From assembly GCA_036925085.1 (NCBI GenBank), contig JAUPFP010000133.1, positions 1 through 64,000 of the forward strand: a DNA stretch of 64,000 nt, in the 5' to 3' direction. The notes beneath the pieces were generated by a model. That model saw only the letters and a program-made list of their open reading frames with translations. It did not search any database and was not told the DNA's origin. Shown here piece by piece: positions 1 through 9,990 of the stretch; within the stretch, counting starts at the first letter, position 1, and each line of letters begins with the position of its first letter. The translations under genes and the position numbers were made by a program. The stretch is from Brachycybe producta. Lineage: Eukaryota > Arthropoda > Diplopoda > Playtdesmida > Andrognathidae.

Positions 1-361
1 TCATAGATACATTAGAACATCTTAAAATAGAATAAAAAATACAATATTGGCCACATACGGCCGTTCTCGAATGTTGGAGTCTACGTGCATTGTAAGTCCA
101 GGAGAGACTGTTTCTCGTAATGAACTGATTTATCTCGTCCGTCATTGGCTTCATTCCGTAACTGTCAAAATATTCAGCCATTCCATTATTGAAATAAATA
201 GTGATCCAGTGAGATCCAGGCTCCGACCGCGCGTCCAGATTAACGATATAAAGTTTACGATTCACTCTAAAAGGAAGTTGGTCCCGTGCGAATACACCAG
301 CAAACACAAAATGCGTGGCTGGATGATGAAATAATAAATATTCCAGTTGACTAGAATCCAT
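1..361 (-). CDS. Adenain-type cysteine protease (5' part, cut by window edge)
   Basis: The minus-strand frame opens with an ATG at 361 and stays open for 120 codons to the window edge, so the C-terminus is missing. The triad of adenovirus-type (C5, Ulp1-like) proteases is visible: His51 in GSHW, Asp66 in YFDSYG, and GQYC with Gln105 as oxyanion residue and Cys107 as nucleophile. In adenoviruses and Polintons this enzyme matures capsid and core precursors inside the particle; candidate substrates with matching sites are encoded upstream (1691-2167, 5188-5547). The stop of the capsid gene lies one base before this start. The position directly after the putative hexon is the adenovirus arrangement. 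The frame shows no damage. Family assignment is confident; substrate identity is inferred. Confidence 0.9.
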   Translation of the reverse strand, partial: MDSSQLEYLLFHHPATHFVFAGVFARDQLPFRVNRKLYIVNLDARSEPGSHWITIYFNNGMAEYFDSYGMKPMTDEINQFITRNSLSWTYNARRLQHSRTAVCGQYCIFYSILRCSNVSM

Positions 362-362
362 T

Positions 363-1688
363 TTAATAATCTATGATAACATTGCGATGATGATCCACTT
401 CGATAATGGACTGGTAGATGGAATAAACGATGACATTCACCGTTGTGTTCAATGGATTTTTAAATTTCATATTGAGCCGTAAAGATCCGTTTTTACTCAA
501 GTTGAAATGGGATCCTGATAGAGCACTTTGATCATTGGTGAGATCGAAGGCATAAAGAGAATAGCCGTTTTTAAATTCCTCGAACGTCACATCTACACCG
601 TCTGTGCCATAATACTTGCGGCACGCAGAAAATAGCTGCTGATAAAGATGACCGTATTCTTTCGTACTGAAATTTGGACTGAACTGTATCCCCGGAAACT
701 GGGTACCATCTACCTGTAGCTCGAGAAAACTAAGGTCCTTGTAATGAAAATGAAAAGGATTCTTTTTTAAATTTCCAGCTCGTGCATCACTATCAACGAG
801 TCCAATCATAACGAAACTCGGTAATATGCCATTACAAATGTTGATGTTAATATCGTGGCCGCCGCTAGGTTCACTGAAAGAAGTGCATTTGATTCGGTTG
901 ATGGGATAAATAAAATTAGACTTCAACGACTGCTCAATATGCGTTTTAACGATAGATGGATTTGGTATCACTTTTCGTACATAGAGGGTAGCAGATCTAA
1001 TATCCACTTTGTAATCATTTTTGTCACTATCTGGTTTCAGTAAACAAAAGGCATCTTTTTGACGAATTAATTTAATGGAGAGATCGAGCATATTAGGTAA
1101 GAGCCGCCCCTGATGAAATATATCTCCGTGAAGACGTCCGCACATATCCATAATAGCACTCGCTTTTGATCTTTCGAAGCGTTGCGCTAATCCATCTGCC
1201 GGATCGGCGGTGGATGGTTTACGATCTTTAAAGGCAGCGATGGTGTCTTTGTAGAACATCTCCAGAGATAAATAAGGTTTATTCCCGGTGTTTTCGCTGC
1301 CTAGAAGGGTCGTTAAATAAGCTTTATATCCATAATCGTGATCAGTGGAACTAATAATCGTATGCCCGAGAGTAACCGTAATTTCACTAAAAAGTGAGTG
1401 AAAAAACCCATTTATAGGTGTGACTTCGCAAGTAGCGTCCAATGGTTTTCCGTCCGCTTTTAAGATTCTTGCCTTCACATTCAGGTAAATATCAGAAGGA
1501 TCTATGTATTCATCGGCATTTCCCATGATATTGAACTCTATCGTATTTTGGTCTTCGATACTGTTCACGGGATGGTATTCCTTAATGCAGTCATCCCGAT
1601 TACTCGTTTGCGTCGCGGGCACGGTAAAAATATCCAATTCACAACTCATCCCGGGCCCCGAGTCATGATGTACGAGAAAGCCGCTCAT
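363..1688 (-). CDS. Putative major capsid protein (hexon-like)
   Basis: 441 residues without signal peptide or membrane segment, rich in short alternating hydrophobic stretches as expected for a beta-sandwich capsid protein. It resembles animal proteins annotated as F54H12.2-like, which occur beside F54H12.3-like integrases; I make that match from memory, not from a search. It would form the double-jelly-roll capsomer. Main support is order: it lies between the basic core precursor and the adenain gene, where adenoviruses carry hexon. Its ATG follows the core stop by 2 nt and its TAA precedes the protease ATG by 1 nt. It is shorter than adenovirus hexon, as usual for small Polinton-like viruses. 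A structure prediction should show two jelly rolls. Less likely it is another structural protein. Confidence 0.7.
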   Translation of the reverse strand: MSGFLVHHDSGPGMSCELDIFTVPATQTSNRDDCIKEYHPVNSIEDQNTIEFNIMGNADEYIDPSDIYLNVKARILKADGKPLDATCEVTPINGFFHSLFSEITVTLGHTIISSTDHDYGYKAYLTTLLGSENTGNKPYLSLEMFYKDTIAAFKDRKPSTADPADGLAQRFERSKASAIMDMCGRLHGDIFHQGRLLPNMLDLSIKLIRQKDAFCLLKPDSDKNDYKVDIRSATLYVRKVIPNPSIVKTHIEQSLKSNFIYPINRIKCTSFSEPSGGHDININICNGILPSFVMIGLVDSDARAGNLKKNPFHFHYKDLSFLELQVDGTQFPGIQFSPNFSTKEYGHLYQQLFSACRKYYGTDGVDVTFEEFKNGYSLYAFDLTNDQSALSGSHFNLSKNGSLRLNMKFKNPLNTTVNVIVYSIYQSIIEVDHHRNVIIDY

Positions 1689-1690
1689 GT

Positions 1691-2167
1691 TTATAGGAGA
1701 TTCACGAAATTGCTAGTTTTTCTTTTTTTACCCGAAGCTTTCTTTGCTGCGGTTTTCCTTTTCTTAGCGACTTTCTTCTTCGATGCTTTCCTTTTCACTG
1801 TACGCTTCGTACTGGCCACGGTTCTTCTATTTCCAGATGTTTTAGTCGTTTTCCGGCGCTTAGCTCCACCTGTCATTGTCTTCAAAAATTCATGCCCGGC
1901 TTCCGTTCCACGCCTTTTTAAGGCACTTTTGAAAGATTCCCCCGCTTCAATATCGGATACGACGTTAGTTCCAGACTTTAACAACTGCTTACTTGCTGAG
2001 AGGGCTCCTTTTTTCAAAAAAGGGATCACGAAACGATATAACGAAGAGAAAAATCCGTGTCCCCGCTGATATTGAGATCCCACGAAGACGGGTAAAGAGG
2101 ATCCAATTTGTTTATGATAATTATAACACGGATCAGACGCTGATCCACAATAGTAAGGCACCCTCAT
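1691..2167 (-). CDS. Basic core / pVI-like precursor protein
   Basis: 158 residues if translation starts at the ATG inside the ATGA overlap with the upstream stop; an in-frame ATG at 2185 would add six residues. There are three parts. Residues 1-37 form a short N-terminal piece. Residues 38-101 begin GFFSSLYRFVIPFLKKG and look like a membrane-active amphipathic helix region. Residues 102-158 are Lys/Arg-rich and suit DNA packing. The parts are separated by sequences matching adenain sites: QRGH before Gly38 (relaxed consensus) and MTGG before Ala102 (good consensus). It therefore looks like a fusion of pVI-like lytic and VII/mu-like core functions, matured by the protease encoded two genes downstream. 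The position between penton-like and hexon-like genes agrees. The role is inferred. Confidence 0.75.
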   Translation of the reverse strand: MRVPYYCGSASDPCYNYHKQIGSSLPVFVGSQYQRGHGFFSSLYRFVIPFLKKGALSASKQLLKSGTNVVSDIEAGESFKSALKRRGTEAGHEFLKTMTGGAKRRKTTKTSGNRRTVASTKRTVKRKASKKKVAKKRKTAAKKASGKKRKTSNFVNLL

Positions 2168-3531
2168 TTGTGAAAAATGGAACACGGACGAAAATGAACT
2201 GTGGCTATCACTACGTCTCCACTGGTAAATAAAATTTTACGTCCAAAGACATCGCTTATACGCACTTCGATACTATGTATACTATCACGTGATACTCTTT
2301 TGTACTGTAGTTGATTGTAGATTTTGGTAACTCTCATTCCATCAGAATCCTGAAGATGAACGGGCCTCAATAAAGGTGAAAGTATATCCCCCACCGGCTG
2401 GTACTCGATGCAGTCGATATACACGAATAAGGAATGAATATCACGCTGAATATCCGAAAGAAAGTCGGCCACCTTAATAATGGGAAGTTCCGACGTATTG
2501 CTAAGATAGTCCTCTTGAAACCCGAGCATTCTTTGTATTTTTTCAGAGAATTGAATGCTTGAATTGGGCTGAACGGTAACTTCTACACGTGACGTTGTAT
2601 TCCGATATTTGAACCAAGGATTCTTTTCACTATTTAATCTCGGATTAGCGATATTGTCCATTCGTGTTTTGCTTTCTAACAATTGCTGATGATAATCTTT
2701 CATATTTTGTAGATCTTGTTTTGACTTGGCTAAATTTTCTTTTTTTTCATCATACGAGGACTTTAAAATATTGTAATTAAATTCATTCGCTTCTTTTTGT
2801 AAACGAACCGGATTGATGAGTTTATCTTTGGTATCTTTATCGTCAGTCTTCTTTTTTTGTTCGTCTTGTATTTTTTGTTGTAAGACATTAACGAGACGCT
2901 GAATGGCTTCATCCCGTTTTCCATCGGGTCCAGGTATGAGGCCTTTTTGATGTTGTAATTGATTTTCGAGCTCGTTTATTTTGTTTTGATATTCCATTTG
3001 ACTGGTATTCTTATCCTTAACGAGATTCTGATAGTTGGTGCGTGATTCCTCGCACGTTTTGAACATGACATTCACATTGTCCGCAGTTGTTTGCACCCTG
3101 GCTTCTTCTATTACCATATTTTCTTCCTCTTTGTCTATATTAGCTGTAGATTTGTCTATTTTTTTAATCAATTCATTTTTGCTCGATTGAATCGAGGGAT
3201 GCCTCAAATGAAGGGGCCCGAAATATTCATCGATATGAGAGTTGATGGCATTCACGAGAAATCCGGGAGAATGATACGCCCCGCTAGGAACGCTAATATT
3301 GATGCTTAGGCTCCGCTCCAGATCTCTGATAATAATTTCACCTTCCTTTTCATCTGCAATCTTTAACCAGGTACGTGAAAAATGAATCTCAGCCAAGGCA
3401 ACTTCGTAATCTCCAGTAATTTCGATGGGTTTTGGGAGTTTCACGGTGTAATTCGTTAAAGTGTTGTCCGGATAATATTTCATACTGCTATTACTCGGCA
3501 GTGTCACGTAAAAGTCTTGAGACTCGGTCAT
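2164..3531 (-). CDS. Penton-like minor capsid protein with inserted coiled coil
   Basis: 455 residues. Residues 1-110 (starting near FYVTLPSNSSMKYYPDNT) and 300-455 (with FVYIDCIEYQPVGD and PLLRPV) resemble the two ends of a protein common in invertebrate Polinton-like elements, which I take to be the single-jelly-roll vertex protein. Between them, about residues 115-295 are charged, Gln/Lys/Glu-rich and heptad-like, which predicts a long coiled coil, broken by GLIPGPDGKRD near 197-207. The insert could form a vertex spike. The start overlaps the integrase stop as ATGA (3528-3531) and the stop overlaps the core start likewise (2164-2167). The order penton, core, hexon, protease supports the name. 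The alternative is a receptor-binding or tail-like minor protein. Confidence 0.65.
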   Translation of the reverse strand: MTESQDFYVTLPSNSSMKYYPDNTLTNYTVKLPKPIEITGDYEVALAEIHFSRTWLKIADEKEGEIIIRDLERSLSINISVPSGAYHSPGFLVNAINSHIDEYFGPLHLRHPSIQSSKNELIKKIDKSTANIDKEEENMVIEEARVQTTADNVNVMFKTCEESRTNYQNLVKDKNTSQMEYQNKINELENQLQHQKGLIPGPDGKRDEAIQRLVNVLQQKIQDEQKKKTDDKDTKDKLINPVRLQKEANEFNYNILKSSYDEKKENLAKSKQDLQNMKDYHQQLLESKTRMDNIANPRLNSEKNPWFKYRNTTSRVEVTVQPNSSIQFSEKIQRMLGFQEDYLSNTSELPIIKVADFLSDIQRDIHSLFVYIDCIEYQPVGDILSPLLRPVHLQDSDGMRVTKIYNQLQYKRVSRDSIHSIEVRISDVFGRKILFTSGDVVIATVHFRPCSIFHK

Positions 3532-4592
3532 TTTTGTAGTTGTTTCAAATCTCCCGCTTTAATCCAACTGTTGTGTTTATCAGCGTATCCTTTCCACTTC
3601 ACCAAAAGTTGCCGGTGCTGTCCTTTTCCTTTTTCAGCTACAACTTTTTCTACCCTCCAAAAATCGCTGTCTTTCTTGTCAATTTTTTGAAGTTCTTCCT
3701 CGTAAAACGTACCTTCTAATAGTTCTCCATCAATATCCACGAGACGGTATACCGAAGGTATTCGGTCGATACGCGCAGAGATGGTGAAAACTTCGTCCGA
3801 CCAATTGGGTAAGTAACCTTTTTCGAAAGTTAGCTTCGTCTTGGAAATACGAACACGGTCACCTACTTTGAACTTGGGCAATCTACTATTGGCTGATGGA
3901 AACAATCGTTTAAATACATCTTTTTCATTGGTAGATGAGACTTTCTCCGGAGCCATGCCAATGCTTCTATGATACGATGCATTGTATCCTTTCACCAGAT
4001 GACTCAACTTATCAATGTACTGATAATTCCCTTTCGCTGTAAAATACCTCCACATGCGTGATTTCAAAGTTCTATTAAAACGTTCGACAACGGCAGCTTT
4101 GACTTCGTTAAAAGTGGTATAAAATCCAATACCATTTTCTTTGAGAAAGGTCTGAAAGTTCTTATTCAGGAATTCTTTACCCCTATCCGATTGAATTTTT
4201 CTCGGCTTCCTTCCATCTCGCAGAATAATTTTTGAAGCAGCGATCATTTCCTTTCCAGTTTTTTGTTTTAATGGTTGAACCCAAGCATGTTTTGAAAAAA
4301 CATCGATACAAGTTAAAAGATAGTTGTAACCCTTATTCTCTTTTTTGTAAGACTGCATATCCACGAGATCCATCTGCCATACATCGTCTATTTTACTGAC
4401 CAATGTTCTATTTCTCGTAAATGTTCTTCTCACTGGTTTATGTAAAGTGTAGACATCTTGCGTTCGTAACCAGGCTTCAATTTCACCCCGAGTAAATTTC
4501 TTTCCAGTTGCCGCATGAAGGCGGTCCACACCTCCGAAAGACCCGCTGGAGGATGGATCATAATAAATTTTTTTGAGTTCTTTGTTTTTCAT
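3528..4592 (-). CDS. DDE integrase with C-terminal chromodomain (retrovirus/Polinton type)
   Basis: 354 residues from the ATG that overlaps the upstream stop as ATGA; an ATG at 4604 adds four. The rve core shows the DDE triad: Asp75 in WQMDLVDM, Asp136 in IQSDRGKEF and Glu170 in VVERFNRTL. An SH3-like segment (about 239-300, KFKVGDRVRISK) follows, then a chromodomain (about 311-349) with the aromatic/WKGY signature LLVKWKGYADKHNSW. The N-terminal zinc-binding HHCC motif is absent or very reduced. The enzyme would join viral ends to host DNA, and the chromodomain may steer insertion to marked chromatin. The type matches F54H12.3-like transposon proteins and Polinton integrases. The frame and triad are intact, suggesting recent activity. 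Confidence 0.95.
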   Translation of the reverse strand: MKNKELKKIYYDPSSSGSFGGVDRLHAATGKKFTRGEIEAWLRTQDVYTLHKPVRRTFTRNRTLVSKIDDVWQMDLVDMQSYKKENKGYNYLLTCIDVFSKHAWVQPLKQKTGKEMIAASKIILRDGRKPRKIQSDRGKEFLNKNFQTFLKENGIGFYTTFNEVKAAVVERFNRTLKSRMWRYFTAKGNYQYIDKLSHLVKGYNASYHRSIGMAPEKVSSTNEKDVFKRLFPSANSRLPKFKVGDRVRISKTKLTFEKGYLPNWSDEVFTISARIDRIPSVYRLVDIDGELLEGTFYEEELQKIDKKDSDFWRVEKVVAEKGKGQHRQLLVKWKGYADKHNSWIKAGDLKQLQK

Positions 4593-5191
4593 GATTCTTC
4601 CCATACGGGACGGTTAGATTCTTTGGTTTCTGGATGATAATCCCATCGCTTGTCGTTAGCTATGAGAGATCGAGGTACATTCATTTTTTTCAGCTCCGTG
4701 ATAAATGGCTCCCATCCTGGGGGCTCGTATCTAGTTTTACTGATAACGAGATCTCTAGTAAGGTCCATAATATTGGTATTCGGCACGACTTGACCATTTA
4801 TCAGAAGCTGATGCGATGAATTCCAACTTAATGGCCCTCTACCATCTTTTATCAAATTGAGAAGACGACCGGCCTTCTTCTGTTGTGTCTTCGGCAGTTG
4901 GTTAACTATATCGCTGATACCTGATGATTGTTTTTCTTCAATGGGACTCGAAAAACCAGGGTCCTCTAATGTCACTTTCGTTACCTCTTTGGGTCTGTTC
5001 TCATAAATGGATTTATACCGGTGTTGTAATTGTCCTAGAAGTAAAACCTTATTGTAGTTATCCAAGTTTTCTTCTTCTAAAATACGTTGAATGGCCTTTT
5101 CAATGTCTCTTAGAGTACGTTGAACGGGCGTTTTATTTTCTTGTCTTTCTCGATATTGAGCTTCCCAAGATTCAGCGGGGATGAGGATCAT
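4589..5191 (-). CDS. Conserved Polinton-associated protein of unknown function
   Basis: I favour the ATG at 5191 (200 residues, start MILIPAESW) because it overlaps the preceding stop as ATGA like the neighbouring junctions; the frame is open to an ATG at 5260, which would give 223 residues and a 73-nt overlap. The N-terminal half is helical and charged. The C-terminal half (about 118-185) has a compact region with LPKTQQKKAGRLLNLIK, then LSWNSSHQLLINGQVV and WEPFITELKKMNVPRSLI. From memory similar proteins sit near integrase and ATPase genes in invertebrate Polinton-like elements. No catalytic motif or membrane segment is visible. Placement inside the structural block suggests a virion or assembly protein. 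The function is unknown. Confidence 0.7.
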   Translation of the reverse strand: MILIPAESWEAQYRERQENKTPVQRTLRDIEKAIQRILEEENLDNYNKVLLLGQLQHRYKSIYENRPKEVTKVTLEDPGFSSPIEEKQSSGISDIVNQLPKTQQKKAGRLLNLIKDGRGPLSWNSSHQLLINGQVVPNTNIMDLTRDLVISKTRYEPPGWEPFITELKKMNVPRSLIANDKRWDYHPETKESNRPVWEES

Positions 5192-5547
5192 TTTCTCGGC
5201 CATGATGTTATTAAACCCGTTAACATCGACAATACGGGAGAAATTAACAGCGGAAGCCAACCCCCTTTTTGTTTGACGAGAAAGTTTTTCTTCGACTTTG
5301 GAGATGCTTTCGTAGTCACTAATTTATTCAGTACATGGCTATAGGGTCGTAACTTTCTTTTTTCACGTTCACTCAGTACAATGTTAGAGTTCCCAATATT
5401 ATGCGCGCAATCACACAAACACTGAATAAAATCCAAGTTGGAGTTCTTTAGAAGTTCTTTTTGAAGTCGCGGATTACTTTCCACAGCTACGTGTAATCTG
5501 TGAATGTTACGATCGAGACGTGAAGGAATTTTTTGACTTACTTTCAT
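5188..5547 (-). CDS. Small virion-type protein with cleavable hydrophobic C-terminus
   Basis: 119 residues. Residues 10-85 are polar and helical with a Cys cluster (QCLCDCAH near 42-49) and basic stretches. After QKGG (93-96) comes a hydrophobic tail beginning WLPLLISPVLSMLTGLI (97-113). The QKGG/W junction fits the relaxed adenain pattern, so the tail could be released as a membrane-active peptide or act as a membrane anchor. Similar short proteins with a GG-hydrophobic tail occur in invertebrate Polinton-like elements (memory, not searched). Both ends overlap neighbours as ATGA: start with the ATPase stop (5544-5547), stop with the next start (5188-5191). The exact role is unknown. Confidence 0.7.
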   Translation of the reverse strand: MKVSQKIPSRLDRNIHRLHVAVESNPRLQKELLKNSNLDFIQCLCDCAHNIGNSNIVLSEREKRKLRPYSHVLNKLVTTKASPKSKKNFLVKQKGGWLPLLISPVLSMLTGLITSWPRK

Positions 5548-6380
5548 CGTTGTTTAGGTAAAAATACAGCGGTATACTCTCCCGGAAATATATTCGTTCT
5601 GAGCCTAGAATTGTCATCCGCATTCTGCGTGAGATCAATCATCAAGTAACTGTACGGATCACGAGTACTCTGGTTAAAGGCATCGATCATAAACTTGGTG
5701 TTACCAGGATACATCTGATGAGACAAATGAGCAATTTGAGATTTGTCACGAGGGTTTTTAAAAAGAACCAGATAAGAGGCATTCAAAGAAATGGTGCGCT
5801 GATACGGGTTCTTGTCAAAAATATTTTGAGTAATAAATATAACACTTATATTTCTATGATGCGAATCACACGTAAAGAGCTGAGAAACACCCCTATCCAC
5901 ATCTTGAAACAGATCGTCGAGTACAATAAGCTGGTTTCTATCGCATCTTAGAGTCTTCATGTCAGGCATTCCTTTTAGAAATGTCGCTCGAGTCCCATAA
6001 AGTGAATACCAGTCTTGATATTGAGAATAGTACCACGTTACTCTTTCCGGTGGGGGTTTAATCATTCCCCTGGCATGATCCAAAATTTTCTTAACGAAGG
6101 TTGTTTTCCCGCAATTGCTGGGACCGGCAATAATCATCCTAAACGGTGCCTTCAATGGAATGAAGGAACCCTCTTTTTCCATGATCGATACGGAATGTTG
6201 CGGTAGTTGTATATTGGCAGGTGCTTCCGTTTTAGTAGAAATAGCGATGTTCGTTGTTTCGAGGATAAGCATAAGAGCCCCTATGCAGCCCATAACGATG
6301 TATTTTATACTCGGTTTCCTTTTTTGCGACATCACCGTTTCCTCTATCGTTAAGCGCGATATTTCATCTTGCTCTACCAT
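5544..6380 (-). CDS. FtsK/HerA-type genome-packaging ATPase (A32-like)
   Basis: 278 residues. Walker A is GPSNCGKT at 86-93, Walker B LIVLDD at 151-156, followed by an SVIFITQN strand (179-186) typical of the viral A32-like packaging clade. The motor would translocate genome into the capsid. Unusually, residues 1-66 precede the core and contain a hydrophobic stretch YIVMGCIGALMLIL (27-40) that could be a membrane segment; the ATPase core starts near 68 (MEKEGSFIPL). That leader may be a genuine anchor or may reflect a later start at Met67. The stop overlaps the next start as ATGA; 44 nt separate it from the upstream gene. Confidence 0.92.
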   Translation of the reverse strand: MVEQDEISRLTIEETVMSQKRKPSIKYIVMGCIGALMLILETTNIAISTKTEAPANIQLPQHSVSIMEKEGSFIPLKAPFRMIIAGPSNCGKTTFVKKILDHARGMIKPPPERVTWYYSQYQDWYSLYGTRATFLKGMPDMKTLRCDRNQLIVLDDLFQDVDRGVSQLFTCDSHHRNISVIFITQNIFDKNPYQRTISLNASYLVLFKNPRDKSQIAHLSHQMYPGNTKFMIDAFNQSTRDPYSYLMIDLTQNADDNSRLRTNIFPGEYTAVFLPKQR

Positions 6381-6424
6381 TTTAGCTTCAAGAATGTAAC
6401 GAGAATGAGTACATAGCGTGATAT

Positions 6425-6793
6425 TTATTCAGTATTAGTACAAGCTTTGAAAATTTCACATCGCCACTCATATTCTAACCAATGGTCGATCAGATACAAA
6501 ATTCCTTGAATGATGACGCTTCTAATCGGTTTGGCATATTCGATCCAGCGGTTTAACACAAATAAGACATTCACACTCTCGAATAAATCATTTATTTTTT
6601 TCCTTTCGTATTCCTCGGGATACATCGTACAAAAATGTGTCGGAACTTGACTTCCATCACCCGCTTTTAGGAGTTCGTCTTGATGAACACAGTCAGCACA
6701 CGCTTTATTCCAACCTGGTAATTTTATCATGGTTTTTATCGCATCACGAGCTTGCGCGCGAATACCAGGAAAATCCGTTGGCGTATACAACAT
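6425..6793 (-). CDS. Orphan small protein (122 aa)
   Basis: I do not recognise this protein. It is open from 6793, shares the strand of the virus block, and sits 29 nt after the exonuclease-like gene and 44 nt before the ATPase gene, so it is probably expressed with them. It has a Cys pair and further Cys/His residues (ACADCVHQD near 31-39, PTHFC near 51-55) that might bind metal, and an amphipathic or weakly hydrophobic C-terminal half (SVIIQGILYLIDHWLEYEW, about 92-110). No signal peptide is visible. The function is unknown. Confidence 0.55.
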   Translation of the reverse strand: MLYTPTDFPGIRAQARDAIKTMIKLPGWNKACADCVHQDELLKAGDGSQVPTHFCTMYPEEYERKKINDLFESVNVLFVLNRWIEYAKPIRSVIIQGILYLIDHWLEYEWRCEIFKACTNTE

Positions 6794-6822
6794 TCTGAGT
6801 AAAATAAATTGTACATATTAGC

Positions 6823-7383
6823 TTATTTCTGTTTTTGTACCCATAATCCAAAAATATAAGCCTCATTTTTTGCACAATGTGCTATTCCATTTCTCCGTTT
6901 TTTATGACGACTACACGTATAGTCAACTTCTTGAGGGCCAAAGATTGTCAGTAAATTCTCATATTTCATACAAAGGCCTAGTTTCTCGAGGTTTATGCTA
7001 GGAATATTTAATTTCATTAATACATTTTTTTCCACAGTGCCCCCCTTATAAGCAAATAAGGCATTTGAATTTTTCTCAGAGGCATGCGTATACAAGCTAC
7101 GTAAAACATTCAGAAATGTTGAAAATGTGATATCATCAATATCATTTCTATAAGAAAGACCATGAATATGTGCCGTCACGAATTGCATTGTTCTGACATC
7201 CTTTTCAGTAAACAGTCTATTTTGAGGAAGTCGAATAAACATATTATGCGGGTGTGGATCACCGATAGTATAGTATCCCAATTCCTTAATGTAAAAATCA
7301 CTTCCAATTTGAAATCCATCACAATCAATAACGGTGGATATATTGCCGAAAATAGGCATTCTGGAAATTAATTTTTCATTCAT
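6823..7383 (-). CDS. Conserved protein, possibly RNase H-fold/DEDD exonuclease-like
   Basis: 186 residues. It resembles a family seen repeatedly in invertebrate genomes, usually uncharacterised. A strand-like start with acidic pair (STVIDCDGF, 16-24), a middle FAYKGGTVEKNVL, then NLEKLGLC and a C-terminal block with Cys/His pattern ending HCAKNEAYIFGLW recall, in order, the three Exo motifs of DEDDh nucleases (TREX/RNase T-like). Residues are not fully canonical, so nuclease activity is a guess; the end pattern could instead bind zinc. It is the first gene of the leftward block and starts 320 nt from the divergent RING gene, so both may share one control region. The start ATG at 7383 is the first in frame. 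Confidence 0.6.
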   Translation of the reverse strand: MNEKLISRMPIFGNISTVIDCDGFQIGSDFYIKELGYYTIGDPHPHNMFIRLPQNRLFTEKDVRTMQFVTAHIHGLSYRNDIDDITFSTFLNVLRSLYTHASEKNSNALFAYKGGTVEKNVLMKLNIPSINLEKLGLCMKYENLLTIFGPQEVDYTCSRHKKRRNGIAHCAKNEAYIFGLWVQKQK

Positions 7384-7703
7384 AAGGCTGAATCAAACCG
7401 AGAAAAGAAAAAACATACCTAATGCCGTGAAATCCGAGGCTTCGGGTAATGAGTAGATCTTGCCATAGCGTATACGTTTCTCCAAGTACTTATACCCCTT
7501 AGCTTATTCCATTCTTGTTTCCAAGGGGTGTAAATAAATCTCAGCCTTGACAAAACAAGAATAAACGTGTTCAGACATGTTTAGGCTTGTTCAAACACGC
7601 CTTGATGTGGTCCAAAGGGTGTGTCTAAATCATGAACTTATGAACACATGTATAGGCATGATGACTCATCTGTCTAATCTGTCCTACTGAAATACTCCTG
7701 AGG
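7384..7703. promoter_or_regulatory. Divergent control region between leftward virus block and rightward RING gene
   Basis: About 320 bp without a substantial frame. It separates the 5' ends of two oppositely directed genes, so it should hold both promoters. No clear TATA box was found for either side. Its most distinctive content is a run of 10-bp repeats at 7563-7602 (separate entry), preceded by weaker in-register decamers from 7543. Confidence 0.5.
7563..7602. promoter_or_regulatory. Four abutting p53-family half-site decamers
   Basis: Against RRRCWWGYYY, the four consecutive decamers are AAACGTGTTC (7563-7572, 9/10), AGACATGTTT (7573-7582, 10/10), AGGCTTGTTC (7583-7592, 10/10) and AAACACGCCT (7593-7602, 9/10), with no spacer. 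The central pair is a perfect full p53/p63/p73 response element. The decamer before (7553-7562) scores 8/10. The site lies 111 bp upstream of the RING ATG and 189 bp from the leftward gene. Binding is inferred. Confidence 0.6.
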
Positions 7704-8319
7704 ATGTACCATGTCTGGTCCCCGTTAACACTATTTCTCATACCTAATGTTAATTTTTCGGAGCATGATAATTCCCGAGCCTATTGTCAAACCTTGGTTG
7801 GGCATGATGCAATTATGTCTTCTTATAATTCATGTATTCCATTTGTAGACATTGCATCTGATTCTGAAACGGAGCCTGAAACTGTCTCGAATGCCTCTAC
7901 TAGAAGTGCTGCAGTTAATAGACATCCAATTGTCTATCTCGATGACTCCAGTAAGTAATTAGATTGGATGTAAAAAAATTTAAAAAAAAAATAATGAAAT
8001 TGCAACTGCAGATGACACGACCGATAGTGAAATTCTCCTCCAGCTGATGGGAAATCCACCTGTAAGCCGAAAAGAAGAACTTCTGGAGAAACTACTACCC
8101 TACGATGATGAAGAAACGGCCACTATCAAATATTGTACTATTTGTTTAGTGAAGGGTGCACGGGTTGTATTTGACCCTTGTAAGCATCAAGCTGCCTGTA
8201 AGGCATGTACAACAACGTTATTAGAAATGGAAAGTTTTTTATGCCCAGTGTGTAGAAACCCCATTTCAAATGTAATTGATGTTTACCAGCCCTTAACAGA
8301 CTTATTGCCAATTCAATGA
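7704..8319 (+). CDS. RING-finger protein (IAP-type RING), two exons
   Basis: Exon 1 is 7704-7950 and exon 2 is 8012-8319, with a 61-nt intron (GTAAGT at 7951, CTGCAG ending at 8011). The phase-1 junction joins the two open frames, while the unspliced read stops at once. The pyrimidine tract is weak. The start may be a later Met in exon 1 (codon 38). The C-terminal RING in exon 2 has CTIC, C-x-H, CKAC and CPVC ligand pairs and ends CPVCRNPISNVIDVY, as in IAP-class E3 ligases, but no BIR domain is present. The acidic N-terminal part has two hydrophobic-acidic stretches (FVDIASDSETE; PIVYLDD) resembling SUMO-interaction motifs, so a SUMO-targeted ligase is possible. AATAAA follows at 8331. The gene lies beside virus genes and converges on the Bcl-2-like gene; viral ownership is likely but not proven. 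Confidence 0.75.
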
Positions 8320-8330
8320 ATATCATCTAA

Positions 8331-8336
8331 AATAAA
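8331..8336 (+). terminator. Poly(A) signal of RING gene
   Basis: AATAAA lies 12 nt after the RING stop codon, on the same strand. Confidence 0.6.
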
Positions 8337-8360
8337 ACCTGAAGTTCTTTTATATATTGA

Positions 8361-8446
8361 ACACTTCTGCAACAGACCTCTGCCTGCCTTGGGATACCAA
8401 GTTTGCTATCCCTAAGCAGGCAGAGGTCTGTGGAATGCAGAAGTGT
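8361..8446. ncRNA. 35-bp stem-loop, primary-microRNA-like hairpin
   Basis: Arms 8361-8396 and 8407-8446 pair over about 35 bp with a 10-nt loop, two single-base bulges and one 4-nt bulge (8432-8435). Length, small bulges and loop size match animal pri-miRNA hairpins. It sits between two convergent genes, beyond both poly(A) signals, in AT-rich flanks. Alternatives are a bidirectional terminator or a cruciform. The strand of any transcript is unknown. Confidence 0.6.
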
Positions 8447-8502
8447 CATGAGTTATTATAAAGAAATGAAACAATACTGCAAAAAATTTCAGCATGTAAC
8501 AT

Positions 8503-8508
8503 TTTATT
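8503..8508 (-). terminator. Poly(A) signal of Bcl-2-like gene
   Basis: Minus-strand AATAAA overlaps the TAA stop of the Bcl-2-like gene. Confidence 0.5.
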
Positions 8509-9013
8509 GCATTCGTATTAATAAATATAACAAAGTGCTAATCATCAGTAATTGCGGAACCACATGAATAACGTTACTCGGAGTGTTGTTAGGTGTTGCG
8601 TAGACATCCTGCATCGCAGCCCATGATCCATTATCTCGAAGCCACGATGCCGATGACTTGAACACGTATTCACCAATATGCACTGCCGTTGCTTCCTCGA
8701 ATCCGGATCTTGCCAGTTGGAGGACGAGTGCGTAAGTCACTATAATTTTACCGAATGATGGTAATCCTCGATAAATTTCGTCCAACAAGAAGGTTAATTC
8801 TTGGTTCAAATGTGACACAGTTTTTAAAGTTGTTGCTATGGATTCGAAAGCTTGAATATCCTTATTTCGAGCTTGTTCGGCGAGTTTGTAAATTGTTCGT
8901 GAAAAGTTGGAATTCACGGTTTCGTGCGATTGCTTGGCTATATGATACACATCAATGGCAATTTTAGTAGATTCCTGCATGTTGAACACCTTATTTGTAA
9001 AAGCTAAGCACAA
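8504..9013 (-). CDS. Bcl-2 family apoptosis regulator (virus-borne)
   Basis: 169 residues. BH1 is recognisable as LPSFGKIIVTYALVLQLA (84-101; SFGK replaces canonical NWGR) and BH2 as SWLRDNGSWAAMQDVY (123-138), in the right order and spacing, followed by a hydrophobic tail VPQLLMISTLLYLLI (152-166) for outer mitochondrial or ER membrane anchoring. A BH3-like helix may be near 57-73 but is weak. Fold and tail fit a pro-survival member that sequesters BH3 proteins or Bax/Bak; direction of effect is inferred. There is no intron in BH2, where animal Bcl-2 genes usually have one, favouring a viral or retroposed copy. A second Met at 12 (MQESTKIAIDVY) could be the true start. The gene is convergent with the RING gene. 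Confidence 0.85.
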   Translation of the reverse strand: MCLAFTNKVFNMQESTKIAIDVYHIAKQSHETVNSNFSRTIYKLAEQARNKDIQAFESIATTLKTVSHLNQELTFLLDEIYRGLPSFGKIIVTYALVLQLARSGFEEATAVHIGEYVFKSSASWLRDNGSWAAMQDVYATPNNTPSNVIHVVPQLLMISTLLYLLIRMQ

Positions 9014-9990
9014 CTAACATTAAAAAGTATAAAAGTGGTAGGCCTTCATATATATATATATGCATAGTATGAATTAAAGCTTCTCACCTTCTATATACAA
9101 AACAACAAAGTCGTGAAAACAAGTTTCTTTATCATCACAGTAGGTGGTATCTAGAAGTTTTAAACTTCTTTCTCTGAGAAGCAAAAAAACTGGGTCAAAG
9201 TTTTTTTTTCTTATGATGAAGCATTATAACATAGCTATGTCTCTATAGCTTATAAACTGGTTGGCCTTGTGGTGCAGAAATGACTCAATGAGAGTCTATG
9301 GGAGATTGGAATGTGGAGCTCGAAATGAGGTCACCATAGTAGTCTATGGAGAAAAGTGGTGCAGAAATGACTTTTCCTATACTACTTACGCCCCCCAGAA
9401 TGTAAAAAAGTGTAGGTCACTGAGTGACCTACAGTTGTTCTCCAAATAGCTATCTGAAAATGTAGGTCACCTAGTGACCTACGATTTAGTCTGTCCCATG
9501 GTTCCTTTTTATTTTAATTCTCCTTTTTTTTATAAATTCCAAAATATGTTTGATGCTTTTTCTGGTGTAATGCGTGGAAGCCCTTGAATTCAAATGATAA
9601 AAGAAATGAAGTGGAAAACGTTTTTCTGATTTTTTTACGAACATATTTAACTATTTTCTGCTTTTTTCACGAATCTGGAACTCAGGCCTAAGTCGGTTTG
9701 ACTGTTAGCATGATACTAATTAAGTTGATTAATAAAGTGAATTGAGTTTCTTTTTTTATTCTATAATGATTTTAATGTTATGTTGTAATCAAGTATGTTT
9801 TTATCTGGTTTTGTTTGTTTTGTTTGCATTTCAATCTCGACGTTTTTGGGAGGGTCGCGTTGTGTGTGTGTTTTGTTTCTGGGCGTATTTTGTATCAATG
9901 TGTACGTGTTCGGGAGGGGGTGGGGTTCCGTTGCTACTATTGTCTACTAGCCGTAGGTAAAATTGAAGCAGTATCTAGATCTTAAGAGAC
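9014..9990. other. Probable virus/host boundary zone, no gene seen
   Basis: Composition becomes AT-rich after 9.05 kb, with a short TA run at 9047-9061. A degenerate tandem repeat of about 43 bp lies at 9269-9372 (GTGGTGCAGAAATGACT recurs at 9269 and 9356). Two 21-bp near-palindromes follow at 9412 and 9462. The viral terminal repeat should be in or near this stretch but cannot be identified without the other end. Confidence 0.4.
9412..9482. repeat. Pair of 21-bp near-perfect palindromes
   Basis: GTAGGTCACTGAGTGACCTA (+C) at 9412-9432 and GTAGGTCACCTAGTGACCTA (+C) at 9462-9482 share arms and differ only in the centre. Each arm contains AGGTCA, the nuclear-receptor half-site, as an inverted repeat with 5-bp spacing. 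Confidence 0.7.

Follow-up and report, generated by a model that had tools for sequence, protein, structure and literature searches.

The window analysed here is a stretch of 64,000 nt from the diplopod Brachycybe producta (assembly GCA_036925085.1, contig JAUPFP010000133.1, positions 1 to 64,000 of the forward strand). At its left end lies a block of eight intronless open reading frames (ORFs) that all run leftward, in the order ATPase, orf119, orf204, integrase, penton-like, core-like, capsid and protease-like, with seven junctions between them (Table 1); the initial annotation of this locus had spoken of seven genes. We read the block as the late gene cluster of a Polinton/adintovirus-type element that was active recently. 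The property conserved along it is the closeness of each start codon to the preceding stop, while the exact overlap drifts. The first base of the window is also base 1 of the contig, and the protease-like ORF is therefore cut at the window edge; its frames are full-length in other copies of the element.

Table 1. Genes and sequence features of the late gene block and its upstream neighbours (window coordinates; percentiles refer to scored AG sites).
Feature	Position	Strand	Remark
Protease-like ORF (adenain-like)	2..361	-	truncated at window start; begins 1 nt past capsid stop
Major capsid protein, double jelly roll	363..1688	-	homologues and predicted fold
Lysine-rich core-like protein	1691..2167	-	start MRVPY recurs in relatives; no Pfam match
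ATGA penton/core	2164..2167	-	offset -4 in C and D, +2 in B, +6 in L001
Penton-like protein with long helical insert	2164..3531	-	structure prediction
ATGA integrase/penton	3528..3531	-	offset -8 in B, -14 in C and D, -17 in L001
rve integrase, C-terminal chromodomain	3528..4604	-	PF00665 2.1e-15, PF00385 6.3e-8, both over cut-off; possible second start 4592
ATGA at orf204 stop	4589..4592	-	integrase start ambiguous, 4604 or 4592
orf204	4589..5203	-	no Pfam match; conserved start 5203
ATGA at orf204 internal Met5	5188..5191	-	conserved start instead 5203
orf119	5188..5547	-	no Pfam match; homologue present in L001
ATGA overlap ATPase/orf119	5544..5547	-	kept in A, B, C, D, L001; by position in L009-L011
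Packaging ATPase (A32-like)	5544..6380	-	PF04665 25.9 bits vs cut-off 22.8
Splice-acceptor-like AG	6386..6387	-	5 nt before ATPase ATG; 90th percentile (B 98th, C 77th)
AATAAA at orf122 stop	6424..6429	-	also in B, C; in D shortly before presumed ATPase start
orf122, upstream gene	6425..6793	-	YAG|A directly before ATG (AG 6795-6796); acceptor 98th percentile (B 100th, C 84th)
orf186, upstream gene	6823..7383	-	acceptor-like AG 7388-7389, 97th-99th percentile in 4/4 subfamilies
Donor-like GTATGT, orf186 leader	7413..7418	-	top donor score within 350 nt upstream in 4/4 subfamilies
TATAAG upstream of orf186 leader	7489..7494	-	TATA-like words also in B, D; none listed for C
Bcl-2-like gene heading leftward cluster	8504..8980	-	PF00452 E 0.0012, below cut-off

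The capsid protein has 61 homologues at E <= 0.001, and its AlphaFold2 model (mean predicted local distance difference test, pLDDT, 86) gave Foldseek matches that include PBCV-1 8h2i, Sputnik 3j26 and mavirus 6g44. For the model of the penton-like protein (mean pLDDT 84, predicted template modelling score, pTM, 0.43), the top two Foldseek matches were the mavirus penton structures 6g41 (E 3.5e-6) and 6g42 (6.2e-6), with a TM of 0.26 by query. The protease-like ORF matched PF00770 weakly and below the cut-off (E 0.004, 17.3 bits against 21.3), and its counterpart in subfamily B of the element lacked a Pfam match. The core label was taken over from the initial annotation. A protein search with orf204 returned no match, and Rfam at gathering thresholds gave no match in window positions 1-9700.

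At least 108 capsid matches were found in the host genome, a lower bound in which a single copy may have yielded several matches. Sixteen of them, the window included, tie at the top score with 100% protein identity, and the others fall at 93-99, 77-78, 70-72 and 68%. When the DNA of 29 capsid copies was compared with that of the window, six were identical, nine carried silent changes only (1-6 nt) and 14 had replacements; in divergent copies the changes were mostly silent (e.g. 58 nt, 9 aa). These copies point to a recent copying burst of the element. Blocks from 18 of the 108 matches were examined, many of them with broken genes, and the window (subfamily A) is compared below with L053 (B), L057 (C) and L061 (D). 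A family B DNA polymerase (PolB), together with the rve integrase with its C-terminal chromodomain and the double jelly-roll capsid a trait of Polintons and adintoviruses, was detected over the cut-off (PF03175) in subfamily D, where the ORF lies on the minus strand (L078:1222-1908), beyond the protease and on the strand opposite to the block, and in the remote contig L002. It was not seen in the window, which begins inside the protease, and one downstream ORF each in B and C gave no match. In the accessible part of PMC11071296, an OTU-like domain on PolB is named as a defining trait. Other traits of the group are an adenain-type protease, terminal inverted repeats and a target-site duplication. 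The host genome has 33 Chitin_bind_4 and eight 7tm_6 (odorant-receptor-type) matches, and its mitochondrial COX1 can be read stop-free with translation table 5, in line with an arthropod host. COX1 matches were also seen in the host assembly on large contigs (C1:12697416; C17:4027703-4029047) besides the 15-kb contig C442, and likely represent nuclear mitochondrial DNA insertions.

Outside the host genome, a scan of GTDB contigs returned 14 loci (L001-L014) in bacterial representative metagenome-assembled genomes, where such Polinton-type contigs are probably contaminating eukaryotic or viral sequence. One of them, L001, has the same gene order as the window block and an integrase identity of 60%. 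L012-L014 are weak, degenerate or partial and were excluded from the junction counts. IMG/VR scans with the integrase and capsid (single and aligned) and the ATPase (aligned) detected no relative, and the capsid had no match among phage records. L001 also carries a second penton-like ORF past the protease (L001:6444-7703), from which it is separated by 50 nt; an AATAAA marks the protease stop.

In total, 34 junctions were counted in the window, L053, L057, L061 (six junctions) and L001, and in all 34 the start codon is offset by -17 to +8 nt from the stop that precedes it (Table 2). Offsets were taken from the first ATG, except for the integrase of B. There the first two ATGs give -41 and -38, and only the third, which corresponds to the second Met in A and C and was used for the count, keeps B within the range. 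Some copies of C have an orf204/integrase offset of -29. In D this junction was excluded as broken, orf204 being broken in L061 and open in L062; in the ATPase of L061, only the last 210 codons form an open frame.

Table 2. Offset in nt between each stop and the next start (negative, overlap).
Junction	A	B	C	D	L001
ATPase-119	-4	-4	-4	-4	-4
119-204	-16	+1	-1	+5	+4
204-integrase	-16	-17	-16	broken	-16
integrase-penton	-4	-8	-14	-14	-17
penton-core	-4	+2	-4	-4	+6
core-capsid	+2	-4	+3	+2	+1
capsid-protease	+1	+5	+2	-11	+8

The initial annotation had drawn attention to five consecutive ATGA overlaps in the window, followed by TAA-2 nt-ATG and TAA-1 nt-ATG gaps. All of these motifs are present where it had placed them; two of the five junctions are open to another reading, as it had taken the ATG nearest to each stop, and orf204 and the integrase possess an in-frame ATG 12 nt further upstream (5203 and 4604), giving 16-nt overlaps. 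From this earlier ATG, orf204 begins with MAEKM in A, B and C, MAEKK in L062 and MAQKM in L001; 5203 is thus the conserved start, and the ATGA at 5188-5191 falls at Met5. For the integrase, a Met at the 4604 position is common to A, C and L001 and one at the 4592 position to A, B and C. The 4604 candidate has a pyrimidine at -3, a position held by a purine in 31 of the 34 internal block starts.

Conservation of the ATGA overlaps in relatives, which the same annotation had made a test of its proposal, was not observed: the integrase/penton, penton/core and core/capsid overlaps shift among A, B, C and L001 while the capsid, penton and integrase frames stay open, so that ATGA is lost with intact proteins. 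Shorter capsid loci, 30 in number and all belonging to A, were largely uniform (penton/core ATGA in 29, the core start not being found in one; core/capsid +2 in 26; capsid/protease +1 in 30), which reflects little beyond recent copying. ATGA as a conserved signal was rejected everywhere except at ATPase/orf119, where it is also present by position in L009, L010 and L011, and not in L002 (+37) or L003 (+57). Since the start of orf119 requires that very ATG, its persistence needs no coupling.

The frequency of the motif was compared with a tight-packing null in which codons were shuffled and the ATG position within -20 to +10 of the stop was scored. Under this null, -4 takes a share of 0.26 if stop codons are used as observed, and of 0.21-0.22 if their use is pooled or equal. 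An offset of exactly -4 occurs at 10/34 junctions, five of them ATPase-119 (12/34 when the second integrase Met is used for A and C as well), which corresponds to P 0.16-0.41; without the ATPase-119 junction it occurs at 5/29 (P 0.76-0.91). For the window by itself, the five of seven of the initial annotation gave P 0.006-0.007 and the three first-ATG cases P 0.17-0.19. Hence, the -4 offset is what tight packing yields; it is also the commonest single offset (12/69) among co-directional junctions of the window and L001-L011.

These figures fit plain compaction, in which genome-size pressure packs together ORFs that each have their own promoter inside the upstream gene, ATGA being the commonest minimal overlap. 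So does the drift within subfamily C, where the core gene ends in TAA (+3) in L055-L057 and in TGA (ATGA, -4) in L058, L059 and L064. Against it, of the seven genes only penton shows clearly raised conservation of silent sites in the interval 24-75 nt upstream of its stop (70/115 vs 593/1296); values are slightly high in the integrase (34/62) and in core codons 26-45 (18/31). Moreover, TATAAA is about as frequent in the block as expected, and the upstream neighbours of the same element, orf186 and orf122, keep gaps of 29-44 nt in A, B and C. Plain compaction appears possible, though somewhat doubtful.

The proposal made initially was that ribosomes terminate and reinitiate serially along one mRNA, the stop/start overlaps being the working part. 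The persistence of short stop-start spacing, the retained ATPase/orf119 ATGA and the good start context speak for it, yet a purine at -3 shows good starts only. The suggested search for 18S-complementary motifs yielded no excess of the core of a termination upstream ribosome-binding site (TURBS): TGGGA was seen seven times within 100 nt of stops against 6.8 expected, six of them in orf204, the sole gene where it recurs. Most stops lack clear silent-site conservation upstream, and seven steps in a row at the roughly 10% reported for influenza B would leave too few ribosomes for capsid and protease, which come last. Coupled reinitiation is possible but seems unlikely. Leaky scanning was rejected, as out-of-frame ATGs are not generally depleted; in A and L001 their counts are reduced for orf119 and core (1 vs 2.2, 1 vs 2.2, 1 vs 2.1, 2 vs 4.0) and not in C.

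The distribution of polyadenylation and splice-like signals sets the block apart from the genes upstream of it. AATAAA was scored from 25 nt before to 30 nt after each stop and occurs at five of seven upstream gene ends (orf122 3/3; orf186 2/4, missing in A and D) against none of 33 gene ends inside the block in A-D and L001; Fisher's test gives 3e-5, a value that is overstated, the rows being related. Measured from the protease stop, the position of AATAAA is +112 in A, +97 in B, +51 in C, -9 in D and -5 in L001. In addition, a pyrimidine-rich stretch and YAG (Y, pyrimidine) stand directly before the ATG of the upstream genes, except that 4 nt intervene at orf186 in A, while at the seven internal block starts no acceptor-like site recurs. 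The lack of an acceptor is clearest at capsid, with at most the 60th percentile in 5/5 lineages, and least clear at core and protease, where the best acceptor within 100 nt reaches percentiles of 98, 96, 99, 80, 95 and 98, 97, 88, 96, 66, respectively (A, B, C, D, L001). Acceptor scores at orf119, orf204, integrase, penton and capsid reach 91-97 in single lineages.

From these patterns we consider it about an even chance that the block forms a single late transcription unit whose products end at a common 3′ site, similar to the gene clusters of white spot syndrome virus (WSSV). A poly(A) site past the protease would terminate this unit, which would yield polycistronic or nested 3′-coterminal mRNAs as in WSSV. 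Downstream ORFs may be served by reinitiation, internal entry or nested mRNAs. As a weaker step, some initiation on them might come from ribosomes that ended translation a short distance away, a mechanism that would favour close spacing and not the letters ATGA. The strongest version, in which a single leftward mRNA gives eight proteins, each downstream start is reached by ribosomes ending no more than about 17 nt away and selection acts on distance instead of letters, we hold to be improbable. If true, seven junctions in a row would be coupled from stop to start in an arthropod host. The single leftward mRNA that had been suggested initially gains support from the spacing at 34/34 junctions, the AATAAA contrast and the missing recurrent internal acceptors; the AATAAA contrast did not extend to L001-L011 taken together.

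Several observations weigh against a single unit. Across L001-L011 the AATAAA contrast is absent (gap junctions 5/23, tight junctions 5/38, P 0.48), so that a junction rule based on this signal failed there; one of the tight junctions with AATAAA is an ATGA junction in L011. The subfamilies are related, and 0/33 versus 5/7 therefore amounts to roughly seven versus two junctions. Subfamily C has an AATAAA inside the protease ORF, 54 nt before the stop. Within block ORFs, AATAAA is not depleted relative to synonymous shuffles (28 seen, 31.8 expected); selection against internal AATAAA had been considered, and a depletion against dinucleotide shuffles vanished under the synonymous ones. Core scores well as an acceptor neighbourhood in 4/5 lineages. 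Finally, some block junctions are open gaps in L002 (+37, +121, +63), L003, L008 (+192), L009 and L010 (+34); closeness throughout is a trait of this branch and not of all Polintons.

The signals ahead of orf186 suggest another organisation, an adenovirus-like late unit in which a common leader near orf186 is spliced to acceptors before each late ORF, so that every mRNA has one 5′-proximal ORF. Donor-like and acceptor-like sites precede orf186 in 4/4 subfamilies, acceptor-like sites also stand before orf122 and the ATPase, and the high percentiles at core and protease agree with such splicing. A short leader intron upstream of orf186 is plausible, the implied introns measuring 31, 64, 57 and 65 nt in the four subfamilies, although 31 nt in A is unusually short. 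An acceptor ahead of each late ORF was not found: sites recur only at orf186, orf122 and roughly the ATPase, and not at orf119, orf204, integrase, penton or capsid. All splice scores come from generic, hand-entered matrices. Overall, a spliced leader serving every late ORF is rather unlikely.

Further upstream, the Bcl-2-like gene matches PF00452 over the cut-off in C (9.5e-11), below it in D (3.4e-6) and not at all in B; it was also located in other copies (L073:462-953, L075:560-1030). No orf122 ORF of 60 codons was called in D. A RING-finger ORF lies on the plus strand (7984-8319; PF13920 7.9e-12) beside a near-perfect hairpin at 8372-8431 with 29-nt arms and a 2-nt loop, and no ORF of its length was present between the Bcl-2-like gene and orf186 in the ORF calls of B, C and D.

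The block offers a concrete, testable layout, with an upstream boundary of AATAAA and acceptor, no recurring internal boundaries and a downstream one. RNA evidence is likely to be obtainable because many near-identical copies reside in a single genome. Should all eight ORFs be carried on one mRNA, animal cells would offer a case of coupled translation going far past the two-gene examples of RNA viruses. In the literature within reach we found no account of how Polinton virion genes are expressed: titles and abstracts, mainly of open-access papers, held no description of polycistronic or reinitiation expression in Polintons/Mavericks, and the accessible text of PMC8363768 and PMC12567637 gave none of late transcripts of adintovirus-type elements. 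The part of PMC11071296 available speaks of "virion protein operons" and raises the suspicion that penton ORFs undergo frameshifting.

Among known systems, caliciviruses and influenza B share the close placement of stop and start. The accessible portion of PMC3035654 gives a reinitiation efficiency of about 10% for influenza B and AUGA as the stop/start form in feline calicivirus (FCV). Unlike these TURBS-dependent cases, the block shows no excess of the UGGGA core, has seven junctions in a row and belongs to a DNA element. Overlaps of -4 and -1 are described for bacterial and archaeal operons in the accessible parts of PMC10666635 and PMC6728339. As in these operons, -4 is the commonest single offset among the junctions of the window and L001-L011; the block differs in its arthropod host and eukaryotic initiation. 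In the adenovirus major late unit, a leader donor is spliced to late acceptors; the block shares such a donor and acceptors, placed at the cluster's head, but most of its ORFs lack a recurring acceptor. WSSV belongs to a family unrelated to the Polinton-type element, and its structural-gene clusters are alike in that an arthropod DNA virus has ORFs lined up in one direction, with small gaps between them and poly(A) signals missing from the interior. According to the accessible text of PMC4728583, WSSV ORFs without poly(A) signals usually lie in such clusters and can give polycistronic mRNAs, and their translation is ascribed to internal ribosome entry sites. The corresponding layout, with one AATAAA at the end, is found in A-D and L001, and the AATAAA contrast fails in the L001-L011 set. 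Closest of all are the Polintons/Mavericks and adintoviruses (Eupolintoviridae), with which the element shares the opposite-strand PolB (D), the rve integrase with chromodomain, the A32-type ATPase, the double jelly-roll capsid and the penton-like and protease-like ORFs, and everything observed falls within this group.

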